Below, piece after piece: positions 2,952 to 39,915 of a DNA stretch of 39,915 nucleotides (positions within the stretch are counted from its first letter, which is position 1; every line of letters begins with the position of its first letter). The translations under genes and the position numbers were made by a program. This DNA comes from a virus: positions 1 to 39,915 of the IMG/VR virus record IMGVR_UViG_3300035564_000055, one strand, 5' to 3'. The notes beneath the pieces were generated by a model. It was not told the DNA's origin, did no database searches, and worked only from the letters and a program-made list of their open reading frames with translations.

Positions 2952-3761
2952 ATGGCCGACTATTGGATAAAGCTTTATATCGAAATTCTTGAGGATCCAA
3001 AGATGGGAACATTACCAGCAAACCTATGGCAGCGTTTTATCCAACTCTGCCTGCTGGCGGGAAAATACGGGAAAGCAGGCGAGTTGCCAGATACTCAACA
3101 ACTCGCCTGGGCGTTGAGAATGAATACCGATGACCTGAACCATGAACTTCACCAATTAGCCAGCACCGGCATGATAGAGCCGATGGTCAATGGTTGGTTG
3201 GTGGTGAACTTCGCAAAGCGGCAGGCTGCGGTCCCGGCTAAAGAGAGAATGTTACAGATGCGTGAACGACAACATAAACAACAGTATTACGATGGTGTTA
3301 CGCCCACGTTACGCGATGTAACACAGATTAACAGATTAACAGATAACAGATTAACAGATACAGAAACAGAGAAGAGGGCGATTCCTACTTCTTCTTTTTC
3401 TCAATCTGAGACTGCCGAAGCCATCAGCCAATTTGGGAACAACGGCGCACGCGAAGCAGAGCATTTATACCAGTCCATTACCGGTCAAATCAGTATGCCG
3501 GGCTTAGGTTCAGATGCCGCCCGGGAAGACCTCGCCAATATTCTGGACTATTACGGTCACGACTTTAGCAAGGCTGAGGCGGCGGGTAAACCGATATTTG
3601 CTGTTTGGTGTAACACGCGCGGCAAGAATGGGCGCAATTATTCACCCGTTAATCCAGCTTGGACAACAAAGTGGCTGGAAAGTTTAGCCGACAGGCCAAA
3701 GGTCAACACGGTCAATAGCATCGCGGAGAAGATCGCGAGAGAGATAAGGGCAAACCAATGA
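2952..3761 (+). CDS. Replication initiator (lambda O / DnaD-like organisation)
   Basis: A 269-residue protein. Residues 1-95 resemble the N-terminal winged-helix domain of phage replisome organisers (a YWIKLYIEIL start, then a gene-regulator-like helical core). The middle is a low-complexity linker (residues about 110-150) encoded by tandem 7-8-base repeats. The C-terminal half is helical and ends in a basic region. A DNA-binding N-domain, linker over the repeats and C-terminal loader-interaction domain recall lambda O and DnaD-like proteins. No helicase or helicase loader gene is evident downstream, so the host helicase is probably recruited. Stop overlaps the next start. Confidence 0.7.
   Translation: MADYWIKLYIEILEDPKMGTLPANLWQRFIQLCLLAGKYGKAGELPDTQQLAWALRMNTDDLNHELHQLASTGMIEPMVNGWLVVNFAKRQAAVPAKERMLQMRERQHKQQYYDGVTPTLRDVTQINRLTDNRLTDTETEKRAIPTSSFSQSETAEAISQFGNNGAREAEHLYQSITGQISMPGLGSDAAREDLANILDYYGHDFSKAEAAGKPIFAVWCNTRGKNGRNYSPVNPAWTTKWLESLADRPKVNTVNSIAEKIAREIRANQ
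3323..3360. repeat. Tandem iterons, candidate replication origin
   Basis: Five contiguous copies of ACAGATTA or its shorter form ACAGATA occur at 3323-3330, 3331-3338, 3339-3345, 3346-3353 and 3354-3360. Related CAGA units follow to about 3371. They lie inside the linker-coding part of the replication initiator gene, the arrangement seen for the lambda origin within gene O. The tract is AT-rich against a GC-richer background. Confidence 0.65.
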
Positions 3762-9682: not shown

Positions 9683-9735
9683 GGGGTATCCCTCACCTAC
9701 CCCATTATTGAAAGAGCCCTGGCAAAGGGCTCTTT
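9683..9735 (+). terminator. Tandem hairpins ending the early operon
   Basis: A first hairpin has arms GGGGTA (9683-9688) and TACCCC (9698-9703). The second has perfect 9-base arms, AAAGAGCCC (9711-9719) and GGGCTCTTT (9727-9735), with a 7-base loop followed by CTTC. The second is a Rho-independent terminator able to act on either strand; it separates the early operon from the convergent minus-strand regulator gene. Confidence 0.8.
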
Positions 9736-9783
9736 CTTCAGCATAGATGGTGTTACAGGTCTAATTATTTGTGTTGGCTTAGT

Positions 9784-10011
9784 TCATAGCATCACCTCTT
9801 TCTCTTTACAGCCATCGCCAAAATAATCATAAAGACTTACCGACCTCCCTATTCCTAACTTTATTCGCACATGGCGCATGTGTAACCTTACGCTCACCCT
9901 GGTTATTCCCAAAGTAGCAACTATCTGCTCGACCGTTTGACCCTGACAGATCAGGTCAATAACCTTTTTCTCGGCCGGAGACAAGAGTTCTCTTGTACTT
10001 TGTTTTGCCAT
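9784..10011 (-). CDS. Stand-alone LuxR/GerE-type helix-turn-helix regulator
   Basis: A 75-residue protein made of almost nothing but a GerE domain: LSPAEKKVIDLICQGQTVEQ, then VATLGITRVSVRLHMRHVRIKLG, matching the LuxR-family four-helix DNA-binding domain. There is no receiver or ligand-binding domain. It lies on the minus strand between the end of the early operon and the end of the late operon. Directly divergent is the promoter of the orphan small RNA. It may control that RNA or the late promoter; both are inferences from position. Confidence 0.8.
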   Translation of the reverse strand: MAKQSTRELLSPAEKKVIDLICQGQTVEQIVATLGITRVSVRLHMRHVRIKLGIGRSVSLYDYFGDGCKEKEVML

Positions 10012-10016
10012 ATACC

Positions 10017-10044
10017 TTTACAATAACAATAAATCATGTATAAT
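10017..10044 (+). promoter_or_regulatory. Promoter of the orphan small RNA
   Basis: TTTACA (10017-10022) and a perfect TATAAT (10039-10044) are 16 bases apart. The predicted start is about 10051. No protein-coding gene lies between this promoter and the terminator at 10146-10174 apart from tiny reading frames. Confidence 0.7.
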
Positions 10045-10050
10045 AAAGCT

Positions 10051-10174
10051 ATGAATAGTCAGCGATCATCAACCGTCAAAGGCCGCAGCAGGGAGTCGGA
10101 GCCCTGCAAAGAGGTGCAATGCCTACCTGGTGATCAAGACTGAGAGGGCTTATCTCGCGAATAAGCCCTTTTTT
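10051..10174 (+). ncRNA. Orphan structured small RNA, about 124 nt
   Basis: The unit has its own promoter and terminator. The RNA folds into one interrupted rod: AGUC (10057-10060) with GACU (10138-10141), GAUCAUCA (10064-10071) with UGGUGAUC (10128-10135), AGGC (10080-10083) with GCCU (10121-10124), and GCAGGG (10088-10093) with CCCUGC (10102-10107) around an 8-base loop. This gives 22 base pairs in nested order. The last internal loop carries AGAGGUGCAAUG, a ribosome-site-like motif followed by the four-codon frame M-P-T-W-stop. A 30-codon frame also starts at 10051. I do not recognise the family. No plus-strand gene follows the terminator, so a trans-acting role is more likely than a riboswitch. 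Confidence 0.7.
10146..10174 (+). terminator. Rho-independent terminator of the small RNA
   Basis: The arms GGGCTTAT (10146-10153) and ATAAGCCC (10161-10168) are perfect, with a 7-base loop and TTTTTT after them. An A-run on the opposite side and its location just beyond the stop at 10210 mean it may also slow late transcription arriving on the minus strand. Confidence 0.9.
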
Positions 10175-10209
10175 GTTTAATGTAGACACCAAATATCCCT
10201 TTTATTAGA

Positions 10210-12801
10210 TCATGCGCCAATCGCCACGCCGGTATCATTGCCAACTAATTCATCAAAATATACCGTCCCGCTAGTTCCTGCGTCAATACCACTGATCGCG
10301 CCCAACACCACGCTTCCCCATGAAGCAAAGCGCGTGTCATTCGCAAATAGCGTCTTAACTTGTTTGCTAATACCGTCTATCAGGAGTTCTATTGATCCAC
10401 TTGTGCCAGAACCCGATTGCAAGTAAATCTCTATATAATGCGGGGCATCTGTAATGTTATACCAACTTGTTTGCTGGTATCCTGCGCTGTTGTCCATTGC
10501 CGTTGCACTAACCATATAGACGCCACCGGAAATCCTGAACTCTAGATAGGCCAGACTGGTAGAACCCGCAATATCATATAGATAGCAAATGTAGAACTTA
10601 TCCAGGTTTGCCATCGTCAGTGTATTGGGATCAAAGTAGAACCGAATACGGGCCTTTCCAGTAGAACTACCCAGGCCAGATACGATAATATCTTTCTCTG
10701 CGGTATCATTGATAAGGACGTTCATACCGTAGCCGGTCCCATTCAGAGCTGCGCCTGCTGCCACAGTTACATCGCCGCTGTCGAGGTGCTGGCTGGATGA
10801 CTGGGTAAAATCTCCACTTTCAAAATTGACGTTGATTAGATAAGTTACCGGCTCAATCATGTTGCCGTTGCGGGTTACTACAGCCTCATCGAGATAATAG
10901 GTTCCCGAATCGCCTGAATTAACCGATGCTATAGCACCAAGAGCAAAGCGATTTAGTTTATTAAAGAGCGCAAAATTGGCAATATTACTGACAGTTTCTT
11001 TCTTGACGTGATCTATATAAATCTTGGCGACACCATCCGATACCCCCGCCGCGGATGCCCTGGTAAGGTGGCACTCAATCACATGTGGCATATCCGCAAT
11101 CGGCCAAGCAGTTGCCCCGGTTTCTGCGCCAGAGTCGTTGTAATAAAGCATTTTTAGTTGATAACCGCTACTGTAAAGAAGTTGCAAGGACAAGCCTAAA
11201 TATCCTGTGGTTGATTCTATCAATCCCGCGATGGTTACATGGCCCGCTGCAATCGTCATACTGTTCGGGTCGATCCAAATCCTGAAGGATATATCGGTTT
11301 CGTTGTTGTATAAACCAAAGTATTTTTTTGCCCATTTAGCGGTTGTCGTTCCGCCGGGTAGCGTAACCGCCATACCGTGACCCGTGCTATTCAATCCTGC
11401 CGGGACTGTGATCGCCAGGTTCCCCGAATCGGTACTTGTTTCTTCGTACTCACTAAAATCACCCGCCTCGTGGGTAATGTTGCAGATAGTTGCGGAAGGT
11501 GTCCACGAACTGGCGACCTGGAACTGAGACGGTTCGGCCCCCTTAATTGTTACCGGCCCCGACATCAGGCGGTATAACTCATCTATAATGATCGGATATA
11601 TTTTCCCTTGCCGCCATTTTTGATAAATATCAGCTATCCATAATTTATAATCCGCCGAGGTTGCCGATCCACCTACGTCTAGGCGATCAAAATTAACCAT
11701 CATAATTTGTCCGTGCAAAATAGCGTAATCCGTCATGGCAATGAGTTGCGCCGCGGTTCTTGCGCCTGCTATCGTCATTTCTATATCGTATAAATTTCCC
11801 GGTGGCATATACAGACTATTGGTGTATCCATAACTTCCTGAACCTGTTAGAGTACCCGCTGCCACCATAGCCACCGCAGAATCCGAGTTCGAATATACTG
11901 ATCCGCCACCTGTAAAAGCAAAATATCTTTCCGACCCAGGCATCCCCATAACGTTACGGATATACTGTTGTTGGTAGCCCAAACCGTATTCCTGGTGTGT
12001 CTCGTCAATGTCACCCATCCCCAGGTTCGTTGCCGTCATCATAGTTTGCCCGTAGCTGCAAATCCCCCAACCGGCGTTATATAATTCAAATAATTGTGCC
12101 AGCGTCAGGCGTCCAGCGTCCCCATCCCTGACCCGGTTGCAGTCCACGTACATATCACCCCGTATGCCTAACTGTTTGTGTAAGGCAAAAGCGCCGCTGG
12201 TATAAACGCTGGAATATATCCCATCGTGCCGGGTCAGCATAACCGGGATACGCTTGTAACCGCCAACCAGCCCATCAAACGAAGCCACTACTACCCCGGA
12301 GGAAGATGCCAGGGTAATGCGGATGCGAATCATGGTGTTGCCCCATGATTCCCCGCCAGTATTGGTCATCTCGGAAAGAGGACAACGAGCAAGCATCCAA
12401 CCGCCGCGCTTTTTATATCCGTCTGCGCCAAAATTAAAATTAAAAGATTTTGAAAAGTCGGTGGTGCTAGAAATATAGAATGTCCAGGATGCGTTTGCCC
12501 AAGTCGCCCAATCCATGTACACCCACAGACCAAAAAATTCGTATTTTCCCAACCCCGCCATGCTGATGGTTTTTGTGGCCGTTTCCGTGCCGGCAACAGG
12601 GGTCGTAATCTTGAGGGAATTGCTACCTTCTTTGACGTTTACTGCATCTGCCGCGATGCTCCCACTTCCCGCCGCAGTCCAATCACCGATAGTTTCAAAA
12701 CCCTCCAGTGCATCATCGGACTGGAGCATCAGGTTTTTAGGCAAAGTAACAGGGGGGGAATTTTTTGACATCGCCCCGTGATTAATTCTTGGATTGGGCA
12801 T
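10210..12801 (-). CDS. Large tail/receptor-binding protein with a degenerate polysaccharide-deacetylase-like domain
   Basis: An 863-residue protein; ATG at 12801 is chosen because AGGAGG lies just upstream. Residues about 30-180 resemble a carbohydrate-binding beta-sandwich. Residues about 185-430 follow the NodB deacetylase layout, starting LTRHDGIYSSVYTSG, but the usual DDG and HxxxH metal residues are not intact. Two related modules of about 200 residues make up the C-terminal part, each starting with an (A/S)GDF-like segment and ending GTxYxDE; these look like LamG/concanavalin-like folds. It is the last late gene, a usual place for host-recognition proteins. Binding surface glycans is more likely than catalysis. 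Confidence 0.65.
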   Translation of the reverse strand: MPNPRINHGAMSKNSPPVTLPKNLMLQSDDALEGFETIGDWTAAGSGSIAADAVNVKEGSNSLKITTPVAGTETATKTISMAGLGKYEFFGLWVYMDWATWANASWTFYISSTTDFSKSFNFNFGADGYKKRGGWMLARCPLSEMTNTGGESWGNTMIRIRITLASSSGVVVASFDGLVGGYKRIPVMLTRHDGIYSSVYTSGAFALHKQLGIRGDMYVDCNRVRDGDAGRLTLAQLFELYNAGWGICSYGQTMMTATNLGMGDIDETHQEYGLGYQQQYIRNVMGMPGSERYFAFTGGGSVYSNSDSAVAMVAAGTLTGSGSYGYTNSLYMPPGNLYDIEMTIAGARTAAQLIAMTDYAILHGQIMMVNFDRLDVGGSATSADYKLWIADIYQKWRQGKIYPIIIDELYRLMSGPVTIKGAEPSQFQVASSWTPSATICNITHEAGDFSEYEETSTDSGNLAITVPAGLNSTGHGMAVTLPGGTTTAKWAKKYFGLYNNETDISFRIWIDPNSMTIAAGHVTIAGLIESTTGYLGLSLQLLYSSGYQLKMLYYNDSGAETGATAWPIADMPHVIECHLTRASAAGVSDGVAKIYIDHVKKETVSNIANFALFNKLNRFALGAIASVNSGDSGTYYLDEAVVTRNGNMIEPVTYLINVNFESGDFTQSSSQHLDSGDVTVAAGAALNGTGYGMNVLINDTAEKDIIVSGLGSSTGKARIRFYFDPNTLTMANLDKFYICYLYDIAGSTSLAYLEFRISGGVYMVSATAMDNSAGYQQTSWYNITDAPHYIEIYLQSGSGTSGSIELLIDGISKQVKTLFANDTRFASWGSVVLGAISGIDAGTSGTVYFDELVGNDTGVAIGA

Positions 12802-12809
12802 AGCGCCTC

Positions 12810-13433
12810 CTAGTCCTGGTCGGCAAAGATGCGAATATGCAGGGCGTTGGCTGTATAGGTCGGAGTACCTCTTGTCACCCAACAGGCAAACAGGTTCTTC
12901 ACTGACCCGGTGCATTTGAAGGGTAGGCTCAGGTTACCCACGGGAGCAATACTGTTGAGCGCCGAGGCGTAGTACAGAGCGACAGGGATTACCGTCACGT
13001 TATTCTGCGCATCGGCATCCGAGATCGACCATGCCGCGTTGTCTGCCGGGGCGGTTACGGTCGCGTCGAATATCCACAGCTCGCCCGCCACTGACTGCAC
13101 CGCATCATCCTCAACGCGGATGCCCGTGATCTTGCCCGTCCCGCCATTGACGCGGGCAATCGAGGTGATGGTTTGTACCGTGCCCACCATATCGCCGGAC
13201 GAGTAAGCCGCGGCCGCTGTGTCAATCACGATGTCGATCTGTACCGCATTGCCACCCAGCGCGCCCAAGTGCGATTCGGTTGCCGCGGGTGTTACCGGAA
13301 GGGTAGTGGTTAGTAAACTCTCCGCCCCTGCCCCGCCCAGGTCCAAAACTACAACCTGTGCTTTCTTTGAACTTTTCTCAACTGCCCGGATCGTCGTTCC
13401 GGTTCCCGCTGTAACTGCAAAATCATCAGCCAT
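12810..13433 (-). CDS. Structural protein of the tail-tip region
   Basis: A 207-residue protein rich in alanine, threonine, glycine and valine, with low charge and a predicted beta-rich fold. It has neither signal peptide nor membrane segment. Placed between two tail-fibre-like genes and only eight bases from the next, it is probably a virion protein such as a fibre or decoration subunit. No family is recognised. Confidence 0.6.
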   Translation of the reverse strand: MADDFAVTAGTGTTIRAVEKSSKKAQVVVLDLGGAGAESLLTTTLPVTPAATESHLGALGGNAVQIDIVIDTAAAAYSSGDMVGTVQTITSIARVNGGTGKITGIRVEDDAVQSVAGELWIFDATVTAPADNAAWSISDADAQNNVTVIPVALYYASALNSIAPVGNLSLPFKCTGSVKNLFACWVTRGTPTYTANALHIRIFADQD

Positions 13434-32021: not shown

Positions 32022-33344
32022 CTAATAGTCCGAAATGTGATAATCATCCGCTGAGTCGTAGACCACAAACTCTTCGACGGGCTCCGGCGCGGATAATTCG
32101 GTCAGTGCCCAAACCATTGCATCAACACGGTCGGGCGAGTCGTCTTCTTTGGGCGCCCATGTGGTCATTTGCGTCTCAAGACCAGGAAGACTGCCCACGT
32201 GATGCACCTTGCCTTGCTCGTACAGTCCTACAATCGGCTCGGCGCGGGTAGCCTTGCCGCGCGAGGCGTGAACCTTGATCACTCGGCCAGTAAAGCCGAC
32301 TGCTCTTAGATTGGCTTCGACCAGGTCGCCGCCGTTGTTCACTTCTGCCACGATGGCATCCGCCTTGAGCGTTTCATACTGAAAGATAGCTTTCTTCGCC
32401 CATTCCAGCGGCGTGTAGATCCCGCTTACATCTGAGAGAACATAGTGATGGTTGTCATAACCCAACCCAGCGCCCACAATGCCTGTCTCATCGCTGTTTT
32501 TATTGGCGCTTACTGCCGGGTCAATAGCCACAACCACCAGCCTGAAATCAGGCGCAACTGTCACCCGGTGTTGATCGATCAGAGCGTTCTTCCATAGCGC
32601 GCCTTCGATGTCCTCGAGAACTTCGGCATAAAGCTCCTGTCTGCCCATGCGCGTATTTTCATAGCGCGCCGTGATCTGCGAGAAAAAAGCTGCAGCCAGG
32701 TTGAGTCGGTTGTCGTAGGTCGAGCCGCGCGTGACAACCGTCGCCGGGTCTTTCAGCAAGTCTTTGAGTTGCTTGATCGGGCGCGGCGTGGTGGTAACGA
32801 CCGCCTGAGGGTTAGCGCCCAGACGTAAGCCAAACATAGCCTGAGACCAGCTCTCTGAGACATAGCGCCAGGCGCACAGCTCGTCTGCCCACAGCTTTTC
32901 ATGCTGCTTCCCGCGCAATCGGTCGGGTTCATCGGCGGTGAATATCAGCGACTTGGCTCCTGAAGGCCAATCCAACCGACGATCAGACTTCTTGTAAACA
33001 GGGCGCTCTGAAGGCGGGCAGATTGCGAGTATCCCGCTTTCGCCCTCGATCATGATGTCTCTGGCATCGTCAGCCGTCGCTCCAATCAAATTGACCAACT
33101 CATAATCCTTTGCCCAAACTCTCACTAATTCTGCACCGGTCCTAGTTTTACCAAACCCGCGCCCAGCCAGGATGACCCAATATACCCAATCACCCGCGGG
33201 AGGTAACTGATTAGAACGTGCCCAGAACCGCCAATCGTATTCAAGACGCTCAAGCTCCGTCTTGCTTAGTTTGCTCAGCCGTTCCTGCCTGATCTCTACC
33301 GGTAATTTCAGGAAGGAGCTTACTAAGGATTCCACTTGGGTCAT
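32022..33344 (-). CDS. Terminase large subunit
   Basis: A 440-residue protein. Walker A at about 60-67 (AGRGFGKT), Walker B with D154 and E155 (LWADELCAW), motif III around residue 184, and RNase-H-like nuclease acids at D275 (AIDPAVS), E334 (AEVNNGGD) and D405/D408 (SPDRVDAM). ATG 33344 is chosen, with AGGTGAG upstream; GTG 33356 is an alternative. It overlaps the small subunit by about 95 bases. It drives packaging and cuts DNA. Confidence 0.95.
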   Translation of the reverse strand: MTQVESLVSSFLKLPVEIRQERLSKLSKTELERLEYDWRFWARSNQLPPAGDWVYWVILAGRGFGKTRTGAELVRVWAKDYELVNLIGATADDARDIMIEGESGILAICPPSERPVYKKSDRRLDWPSGAKSLIFTADEPDRLRGKQHEKLWADELCAWRYVSESWSQAMFGLRLGANPQAVVTTTPRPIKQLKDLLKDPATVVTRGSTYDNRLNLAAAFFSQITARYENTRMGRQELYAEVLEDIEGALWKNALIDQHRVTVAPDFRLVVVAIDPAVSANKNSDETGIVGAGLGYDNHHYVLSDVSGIYTPLEWAKKAIFQYETLKADAIVAEVNNGGDLVEANLRAVGFTGRVIKVHASRGKATRAEPIVGLYEQGKVHHVGSLPGLETQMTTWAPKEDDSPDRVDAMVWALTELSAPEPVEEFVVYDSADDYHISDY

Positions 33345-33693
33345 ACGTCTTCTCACCTGTCGGATCGGTCGGCGCTATCTTGGTCGGTGCATCCAAGCCA
33401 AGTAACTTCGCCCGGCGTTCCATGATCCGTAAAATACGATCAGTGTTCTCTTTCTTTGACTCCCACAAATCAGCCAGCATTGCATCAAGACGTTCAACTT
33501 CCAATTTCCTCAACTCGTTGGCTGGCTCCTGCAACGTCTTCTTAAGTGCGCTCATTACGGCGTTGTGAGCGCCAGACTTCGACCTATAACCCAGTTCCTT
33601 GGCAATCTCGTCGTAACTCTTGCCCGCTTTGCGCAGCTCGAGCGCCTTTAGTTTATTGGCCTGAGCATCGATTGCGCGTTGCGAGTTACCCAT
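33250..33693 (-). CDS. Terminase small subunit
   Basis: A 147-residue protein. Residues 1-60 hold a helix-turn-helix (KAGKSYDEIAKELGYRS) like the DNA-recognition domain of small terminases. Residues 60-100 form a long helix for oligomerisation, and the C-terminus is proline-rich. It is placed immediately before the large subunit, as usual. It would recognise the packaging site. Confidence 0.8.
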   Translation of the reverse strand: MGNSQRAIDAQANKLKALELRKAGKSYDEIAKELGYRSKSGAHNAVMSALKKTLQEPANELRKLEVERLDAMLADLWESKKENTDRILRIMERRAKLLGLDAPTKIAPTDPTGEKTYDPSGILSKLLPEITGRDQAGTAEQTKQDGA

Positions 33694-36012: not shown

Positions 36013-36040
36013 GGGTTTGTCCTCCACCCGTAATAATTTG

Positions 36041-36065
36041 GGGAAGGCGTATACGGACGCCTCCC
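36041..36065 (-). other. Second leader hairpin of the late message
   Basis: On the minus strand GGGAGGCGU (36065-36057) pairs with ACGCCUUCCC (36050-36041), nine pairs with one bulged U and a 6-base loop. No T-run follows, so it is not a standard terminator. It lies about 30 bases upstream of the first late start codon. Confidence 0.65.
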
Positions 36066-36077
36066 TATTTGAGTTTT

Positions 36078-36140
36078 AGCGGTTAAATGAGAAACGGAAA
36101 GACTCGGTTAAGTTTGTCTTTCCGTATATGAGTAACCGCT
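36078..36140 (-). other. Two-stem hairpin at the 5' end of the late message
   Basis: Outer arms AGCGGTTA (36078-36085) and TAACCGCT (36133-36140), and inner arms ACGGAAAGAC (36094-36103) and GTCTTTCCGT (36116-36125), are perfect inverted repeats with near-equal spacers (8 and 7 bases) and a 12-base central loop. The predicted transcription start of the late promoter is at 36140, so the RNA begins with the hairpin. A put-like antiterminator, a stability element or an attP site are all possible. Confidence 0.75.
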
Positions 36141-36146
36141 AATTAG

Positions 36147-36174
36147 AGTATAAGCCCTTTTGGTGGGCTGTCAA
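36147..36174 (-). promoter_or_regulatory. Late promoter
   Basis: Minus-strand TTGACA (36174-36169), 16-base spacer, TATACT (36152-36147). The spacer itself contains an inverted repeat, AGCCC and GGGCT. The predicted start is 36140. This is the only near-consensus promoter found before the late genes, which read in one direction for 26 kb with very few gaps. Confidence 0.8.
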
Positions 36175-39636: not shown

Positions 39637-39812
39637 GACACCTAACTTATCTCTTCCTTTCAGCCTTCGCAGCCGCATTTTGGGGCGGCATCACCCTTCA
39701 CTTCCTGGGTACAGTCGCCGCCGGGATTGTCACTGCCTTCGTGTTCGTAACCGGGATATTTACCTTCTCGCTCTTAAACAGCGCTGCAGTAGCAGACGGA
39801 AGGCAGGCATAA
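39633..39812 (+). CDS. 59-residue two-pass membrane protein
   Basis: Starts at ATG 39633, overlapping the previous stop. Two hydrophobic helices (about residues 4-24 and 28-48) and a polar C-terminal end. The stop at 39810-39812 is followed one base later by the ATG of the amber-interrupted frame. Not recognised. Confidence 0.55.
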   Translation: MRHLTYLFLSAFAAAFWGGITLHFLGTVAAGIVTAFVFVTGIFTFSLLNSAAVADGRQA

Positions 39813-39915
39813 CATGGGTAGACCATACCGAGGCTCTAATCTGATCTATTGCGATACCTGGCCCCGCATAACGGTCCGGGATATCAGTAACCCAAACTCG
39901 GAGTATTGGCGATCG
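39793..39915. repeat. Direct terminal repeat, right copy
   Basis: Identical to bases 1-123; see the left copy. The window ends exactly one base before the in-frame amber codon found at 124 in the left copy. Confidence 0.95.
39814..39915 (+). CDS. 5' part of the amber-interrupted frame (continues at 124 if circular)
   Basis: 34 codons from ATG 39814 identical to 22-123. If the molecule is circular, this and positions 22-402 are the same gene. Listed separately only because the window cuts it here. Confidence 0.7.
   Translation, partial: MGRPYRGSNLIYCDTWPRITVRDISNPNSEYWRS

Follow-up and report, generated by a model that had tools for sequence, protein, structure and literature searches.

The window analysed here is the whole of a single virus record (IMG/VR record IMGVR_UViG_3300035564_000055; 39,915 nt), in which a small transcription unit on the plus strand (10017-10174) lies between two converging sets of genes. 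The early genes lie on the plus strand and reach to about 9.6 kb, and the late genes (terminase, portal, capsid and tail) occupy the minus strand down to 10,210; the unit thus stands at the early/late junction, where a preliminary description of this DNA had placed an orphan structured RNA. Bases 1-123 recur unchanged as 39793-39915, so the record most probably represents a closed genome with a length of 39,792 bp. The relatives of its capsid protein include one from an Anaerolineaceae metagenome-assembled genome, the best named relative (56% identity), which makes the Chloroflexota host guessed at earlier plausible.

The unit opens with a sigma-70 type promoter (10017..10044, +; TTTACA-16-TATAAT), which matches the consensus at 11 of 12 positions and carries the TATAAT -10 box that had been noticed before. 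Only three promoters in the genome reach 11/12, at 10017(+), 38410(+) and 36174(-), and the other two likewise stand at operon heads. Transcription is predicted to start at ~10051, 7 nt past the -10 box, and to run through the body of the RNA (10051..10141, +) into an intrinsic terminator (10142..10174, +), as strong as had been supposed, in which a 12-pair stem is followed by TTTTTTGTTT; the complete terminator reads GAGAGGGCTTATCTCGCGAATAAGCCCTTTT-TTGTTT. The promoter-to-terminator distance is 128 nt and the predicted transcript is about 125 nt long. The next 2.7 kb after the unit are taken up by a minus-strand tail-region gene (10210-12915), so that, as described, no plus-strand gene follows.

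To put a number on this arrangement, we scanned for promoters followed by a terminator within 300 nt, using 300 block-shuffled copies of the genome as background. A pair as strong as that of the window was found in 0 of the 300 shuffled genomes (weaker pairs occurred in 20%), which upholds the claim of a self-contained unit. Over 686 kb, comprising the window and related phages, the scan returned 14 units versus 1.7 in shuffles, and the units of six relatives were mutually conserved; the scan therefore finds real units. This result, together with the absence of an equal pair from the shuffled genomes, makes a discrete plus-strand transcript of ~125 nt likely, and by sequence criteria the transcription unit is real. 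It has the anatomy of OOP/Sar-type RNAs, as far as this can be read from sequence: its own promoter and an intrinsic terminator bound a transcript within the range of ~70-130 nt.

Divergent from the RNA lies a gene for a 75-amino-acid protein with a GerE/LuxR DNA-binding domain (luxR; 9784..10011, -). The domain, PF00196, scores 36.5 bits against a Pfam cut-off of 23.5, confirming that a GerE-type protein reads away from the RNA, and the relatives with solved structures in the PDB are GerE (1fse) and NarL (1je8). Searches with the protein returned only ordinary LuxR-type proteins, and searches with the adjoining tail-region proteins gave no match. The -35 box of the RNA promoter shares bases with the luxR ribosome site, AAAGG (10019-10015). 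A predicted hairpin (9710..9736) marks the end of the early (+) genes on one side and of luxR (-) on the other, and is likely a bidirectional terminator.

On the minus strand, the terminator hairpin of the RNA is without a U-tract, and the stretch of that strand from the stop of the tail gene (10210) to the hairpin at 9733-9713 revealed no other terminator with such a tract. Because of this, late messages should cross the complement of the RNA into luxR, and the RNA would be antisense to the luxR leader on the late message; provided that late transcripts do read through, it is complementary to the tail-gene/luxR intercistronic region. The regulator plus small-RNA switch suggested in the preliminary description is thus possible, and the antisense relation to the luxR leader gives it a more concrete link. 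A putative minus-strand promoter within the end of the tail gene (10257..10286, -; TTGACG-18-TATATT, 10/12 positions), which ranks second among promoters in the genome's left half, may also give a luxR leader complementary to the whole RNA, though it is possibly a chance match. In one predicted fold of a long luxR leader the luxR ribosome site is paired. An inverted repeat (10042-10058 / 9849-9865; 15/17 complementary) connects the luxR leader with the luxR coding region and could pair inside the luxR message.

We tentatively favour, with somewhat less than even confidence, the reading that the RNA is an OOP/Sar-like cis-antisense phage small RNA. It would be an independently transcribed, intrinsically terminated regulator of about 125 nt, which the host polymerase could make from the RNA's own sigma-70 promoter both in the lysogen and during early infection. 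Such an RNA would find its complement, from end to end, in the part of the late minus-strand message that joins the last tail gene to luxR. The message would be destabilised or blocked either by pairing or by convergent polymerases colliding within the 200-bp gap, and the level of the GerE-type regulator would stay low until late transcription prevails. Four features can be read directly from the DNA: the promoter, the terminator, luxR in divergent orientation, and a minus strand that lacks a U-tract terminator from the tail gene to luxR. From them we infer production of the RNA, late read-through and an effect of pairing. A more elaborate version would make a two-part timer of late genes out of the RNA and the GerE-only protein, with an antisense RNA and a regulator gene sharing one overlapping control region; this strikes us as quite improbable. 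We know of no description of such a shared-control-region switch for Chloroflexota phages.

Several observations weigh against an antisense role. The predicted start of the RNA lies ~30 nt upstream of the luxR ribosome site, which stays uncovered, and antisense overlap is an automatic outcome of a position between convergent genes. No homologue of the RNA was found in 21 + 50 related records (71 in all), and the unit scan of the 686 kb revealed no counterpart. Finally, the fold is not exceptional, its energy being ordinary for this genome. The predicted rod of 23 pairs, with 5 outer pairs, has a folding energy of -29.8 kcal/mol for 91 nt (z = -2.0, 1000 shuffles), and ~5% of 664 segments of the same genome fold at least as well, so that the energy is not clearly below either the shuffled or the genomic background. 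The interrupted rod reported earlier is therefore present as a predicted fold, but one that about 5% of segments match. In the same way, the notion of a structured RNA stands as far as the unit is concerned but not for a selected fold: the energy is ordinary, and the searches yielded no homologue whose pairs might covary.

Other searches for relatives had the same outcome. No family of Rfam 15 matched the RNA at or above the gathering threshold, in agreement with the earlier failure to recognise a known RNA family, and at E values up to 5 the interval 10045-10178 gave nothing except one weak match ending at 10045. Searched as DNA, the RNA has no further copy in its own genome; a 16-mer search of IMG/VR gave 9 matches, none longer than 18 nt and none a homologue; the INPHARED phages held no homologue; and among 396 genomes from the class to which the Anaerolineaceae relative belongs only chance-level matches turned up. 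The best of these, in L175 (72% over 71 nt), was rejected; it reads by eye as the end of a frame (...RNAYLGI-stop). In a match at L184, the apical hairpin of the RNA looks T-arm-like, but ARAGORN found no tRNA gene in the window.

Absence from the relatives searched is also what would be expected if the unit were a moron, that is, an orphan small RNA expressed in the lysogen and acting in trans on host messages or on a protein, unlinked to luxR. Its autonomous promoter and terminator fit this explanation, as does the composition of the flanking DNA, which has a GC content of ~41% versus 52.5% for the genome, as in horizontally gained morons. However, the RNA showed no significant pairing with the translation-start regions of the phage when compared with shuffled RNAs, and its fold is ordinary; we regard a moron as doubtful, though a possibility to be reckoned with. 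The lack of conservation and the ordinary fold would equally suit a unit without any RNA function, in which the role of the terminator is to insulate the early and late operons where they converge, while the promoter is a by-product or a weak decoy whose transcript is noise. The strongest plus-strand terminator of the junction does sit where early read-through must stop, but an 11/12 promoter 128 nt before it is not expected by chance, and the hairpin at 9710-9736 already faces early read-through. We consider this insulator explanation unlikely.

The unit also contains reading frames. The tiny frame M-P-T-W-stop (10110..10133, +; ATG-CCT-ACC-TGG-TGA), with its ATG at 10119 and a ribosome-site-like AGAGG at 10110, exists as first reported, but it is unremarkable and a function for it is not supported. 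A second frame, missed in the preliminary description, allows an alternative reading: a leaderless ATG frame of 30 codons (MNSQRSSTVKGRSRESEPCKEVQCLPGDQD; 10051..10143, +) spans the unit from the predicted transcription start to the base of the terminator. A mini-gene whose translation begins with the very first base of the transcript and yields a small peptide with cysteine would account for this coincidence of both ends. Its codon usage, however, resembles that of non-coding frames (-4.6 bits; scores that low occur in 2.5% of true 30-codon stretches, and higher scores in 39% of wrong-frame stretches), although the test is insensitive here, as luxR itself scores low too. The product has no PHROG match and no relative in the related loci examined, and we give the mini-gene little credence.

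The promoter-terminator scan also revealed RNAs that head the late operons of related phages, and these fall into two recurrent elements. Element A has a promoter at or close to the consensus (mostly TTGACA-16-TATAAT), followed after ~20 nt by a hairpin with the loop core TGCCCCCCTCA. Most copies were sought with a pattern that contained the loop, which partly accounts for its invariance; the covariation of the stem has no such origin: over 24 distinct copies (L006:2527-2569(+), L077:639-681(+), L203:6554-6596(-), L218:1535-1577(+), L227:9467-9509(-) and 19 others; alignment A8), 96.7% of cells are paired, with 105 double changes over 13 of the 14 pairs, and 0 of 500 shuffles gave as high a value. 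A T-run often lies 3' of the stem, and 15 of the 24 copies precede terminase genes.

Element B is a second promoter at the head of the late operon, often directly after element A. Within its RNA of ~100 nt, a GAATA-like box on the 5' side is followed by GCA, a variable helix that covaries, and TGAG, and the terminator is GC-rich. Its 23 matches, 19 of them distinct (L077:767-821(+), L078:1935-1989(+), L045:317-370(+), L203:6427-6482(-), L226:1053-1106(+), L240:5499-5551(-) and others; alignment A10), have 90% of cells paired and 23 double changes, with 0 of 500 shuffles as high; these counts lean towards the model, to which the matches were fitted. L240 and L245 carry two copies each. Both elements precede terminase genes in the copies that could be placed, and neither had an Rfam match in the copies searched. 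A search of 298 genomes from the class that includes the Anaerolineaceae relative, with stricter filters, gave no match to the element B model. Element B has the look of a promoter-proximal attenuator in the manner of lambda pR'-tR'; together, the two elements look like sites of late-transcription attenuation, at which antitermination may operate.

The RNA of the window shares some of this anatomy, namely a promoter, a GAATA box, a stem, TGAG at the base of the terminator and a T6GTTT tail, and might be read as a displaced, degenerate copy of element B, the more so as L240 and L245 show that a locus can hold more than one. However, the covariance models R1 and R2 miss it even with filters off, and when the search was limited to 156 bases the best score was 1.3 bits (E 0.58). 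It also lies in the wrong place and on the wrong strand, at the opposite end of the late operon, with no element A hairpin before it. Such an origin is close to refuted. Since R1 and R2 miss it unfiltered and the window nowhere contains the loop of element A, the RNA belongs to neither element. A hand-made descriptor of element B did match the RNA, but it also matched chance sites elsewhere and was rejected by the covariance models. The window's own late-operon head (36040-36174, -), where relatives carry elements A and B, has TTGACA-16-TATACT followed by a nested hairpin leader. Within this leader lies a terminator-like stem (36125-36094) with a loop of 12, followed by TTTCTCATTT.

Some further features of these genomes were observed in passing. 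A 147-amino-acid protein adjoining the terminase (33250-33693, -) has a PHROG match annotated 'Rnase E' (phrog_645, E 7e-29); in the relatives, a different protein of ~230-260 amino acids, treated as the small terminase, stands before terL at this position. Tandem 8-bp units of the ACAGATTA type (3323-3370) within a DnaD-like helicase-loader gene (2952-3761) are possible replication-origin iterons. In the L080 record (G040; 1317-1574), that of a related provirus, the late operon ends directly against an apparent host tRNA-Glu gene, read by eye, suggesting that this gene is the integration site.

The unit of the window is thus real but orphan. Its most likely product is an antisense small RNA that belongs to a kind already known, and it looks like an ordinary addition to the small RNAs of phages. 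Should it be expressed, a phage of Chloroflexota-type hosts would have a small RNA that exerts simple antisense control over a late-positioned regulator; a literature search found no paper on non-coding RNA of Chloroflexota phages. The wider gain is methodological, as the promoter and terminator scan exposed two recurrent, covarying late-leader RNA elements, and this conserved pair is a more valuable result than the RNA of the window.

Compared with element B of the related phages, the window RNA is alike in its promoter, its length (~100 nt for element B) and its GC-rich terminator with TGAG at the base, but differs in sequence, helix and position, element B heading the late operon. The OOP RNA of lambda has its own promoter and terminator (pO-oop-tO) and is antisense to cII (PMC5869508). 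Like OOP, the window RNA is short, has its own promoter and intrinsic terminator and, given late read-through, would be antisense to the message of a neighbouring regulator; unlike OOP, it would overlap the leader upstream of luxR, and we claim no sequence relation between the two. The sar RNA of P22 has an intercistronic position and overlaps the start region of ant; unlike sar, the window RNA leaves the luxR ribosome site uncovered. As a small antisense RNA, sar controls a regulator gene, the antirepressor (PMC12197685). STnc6030 of prophage BTP1 is antisense to late structural genes and excludes superinfection (PMC7067206). The window RNA is likewise predicted to be complementary to a late message, but whereas STnc6030 is 500-786 nt long and overlaps coding sequence, the window RNA is ~125 nt long and lies in an intercistronic gap.
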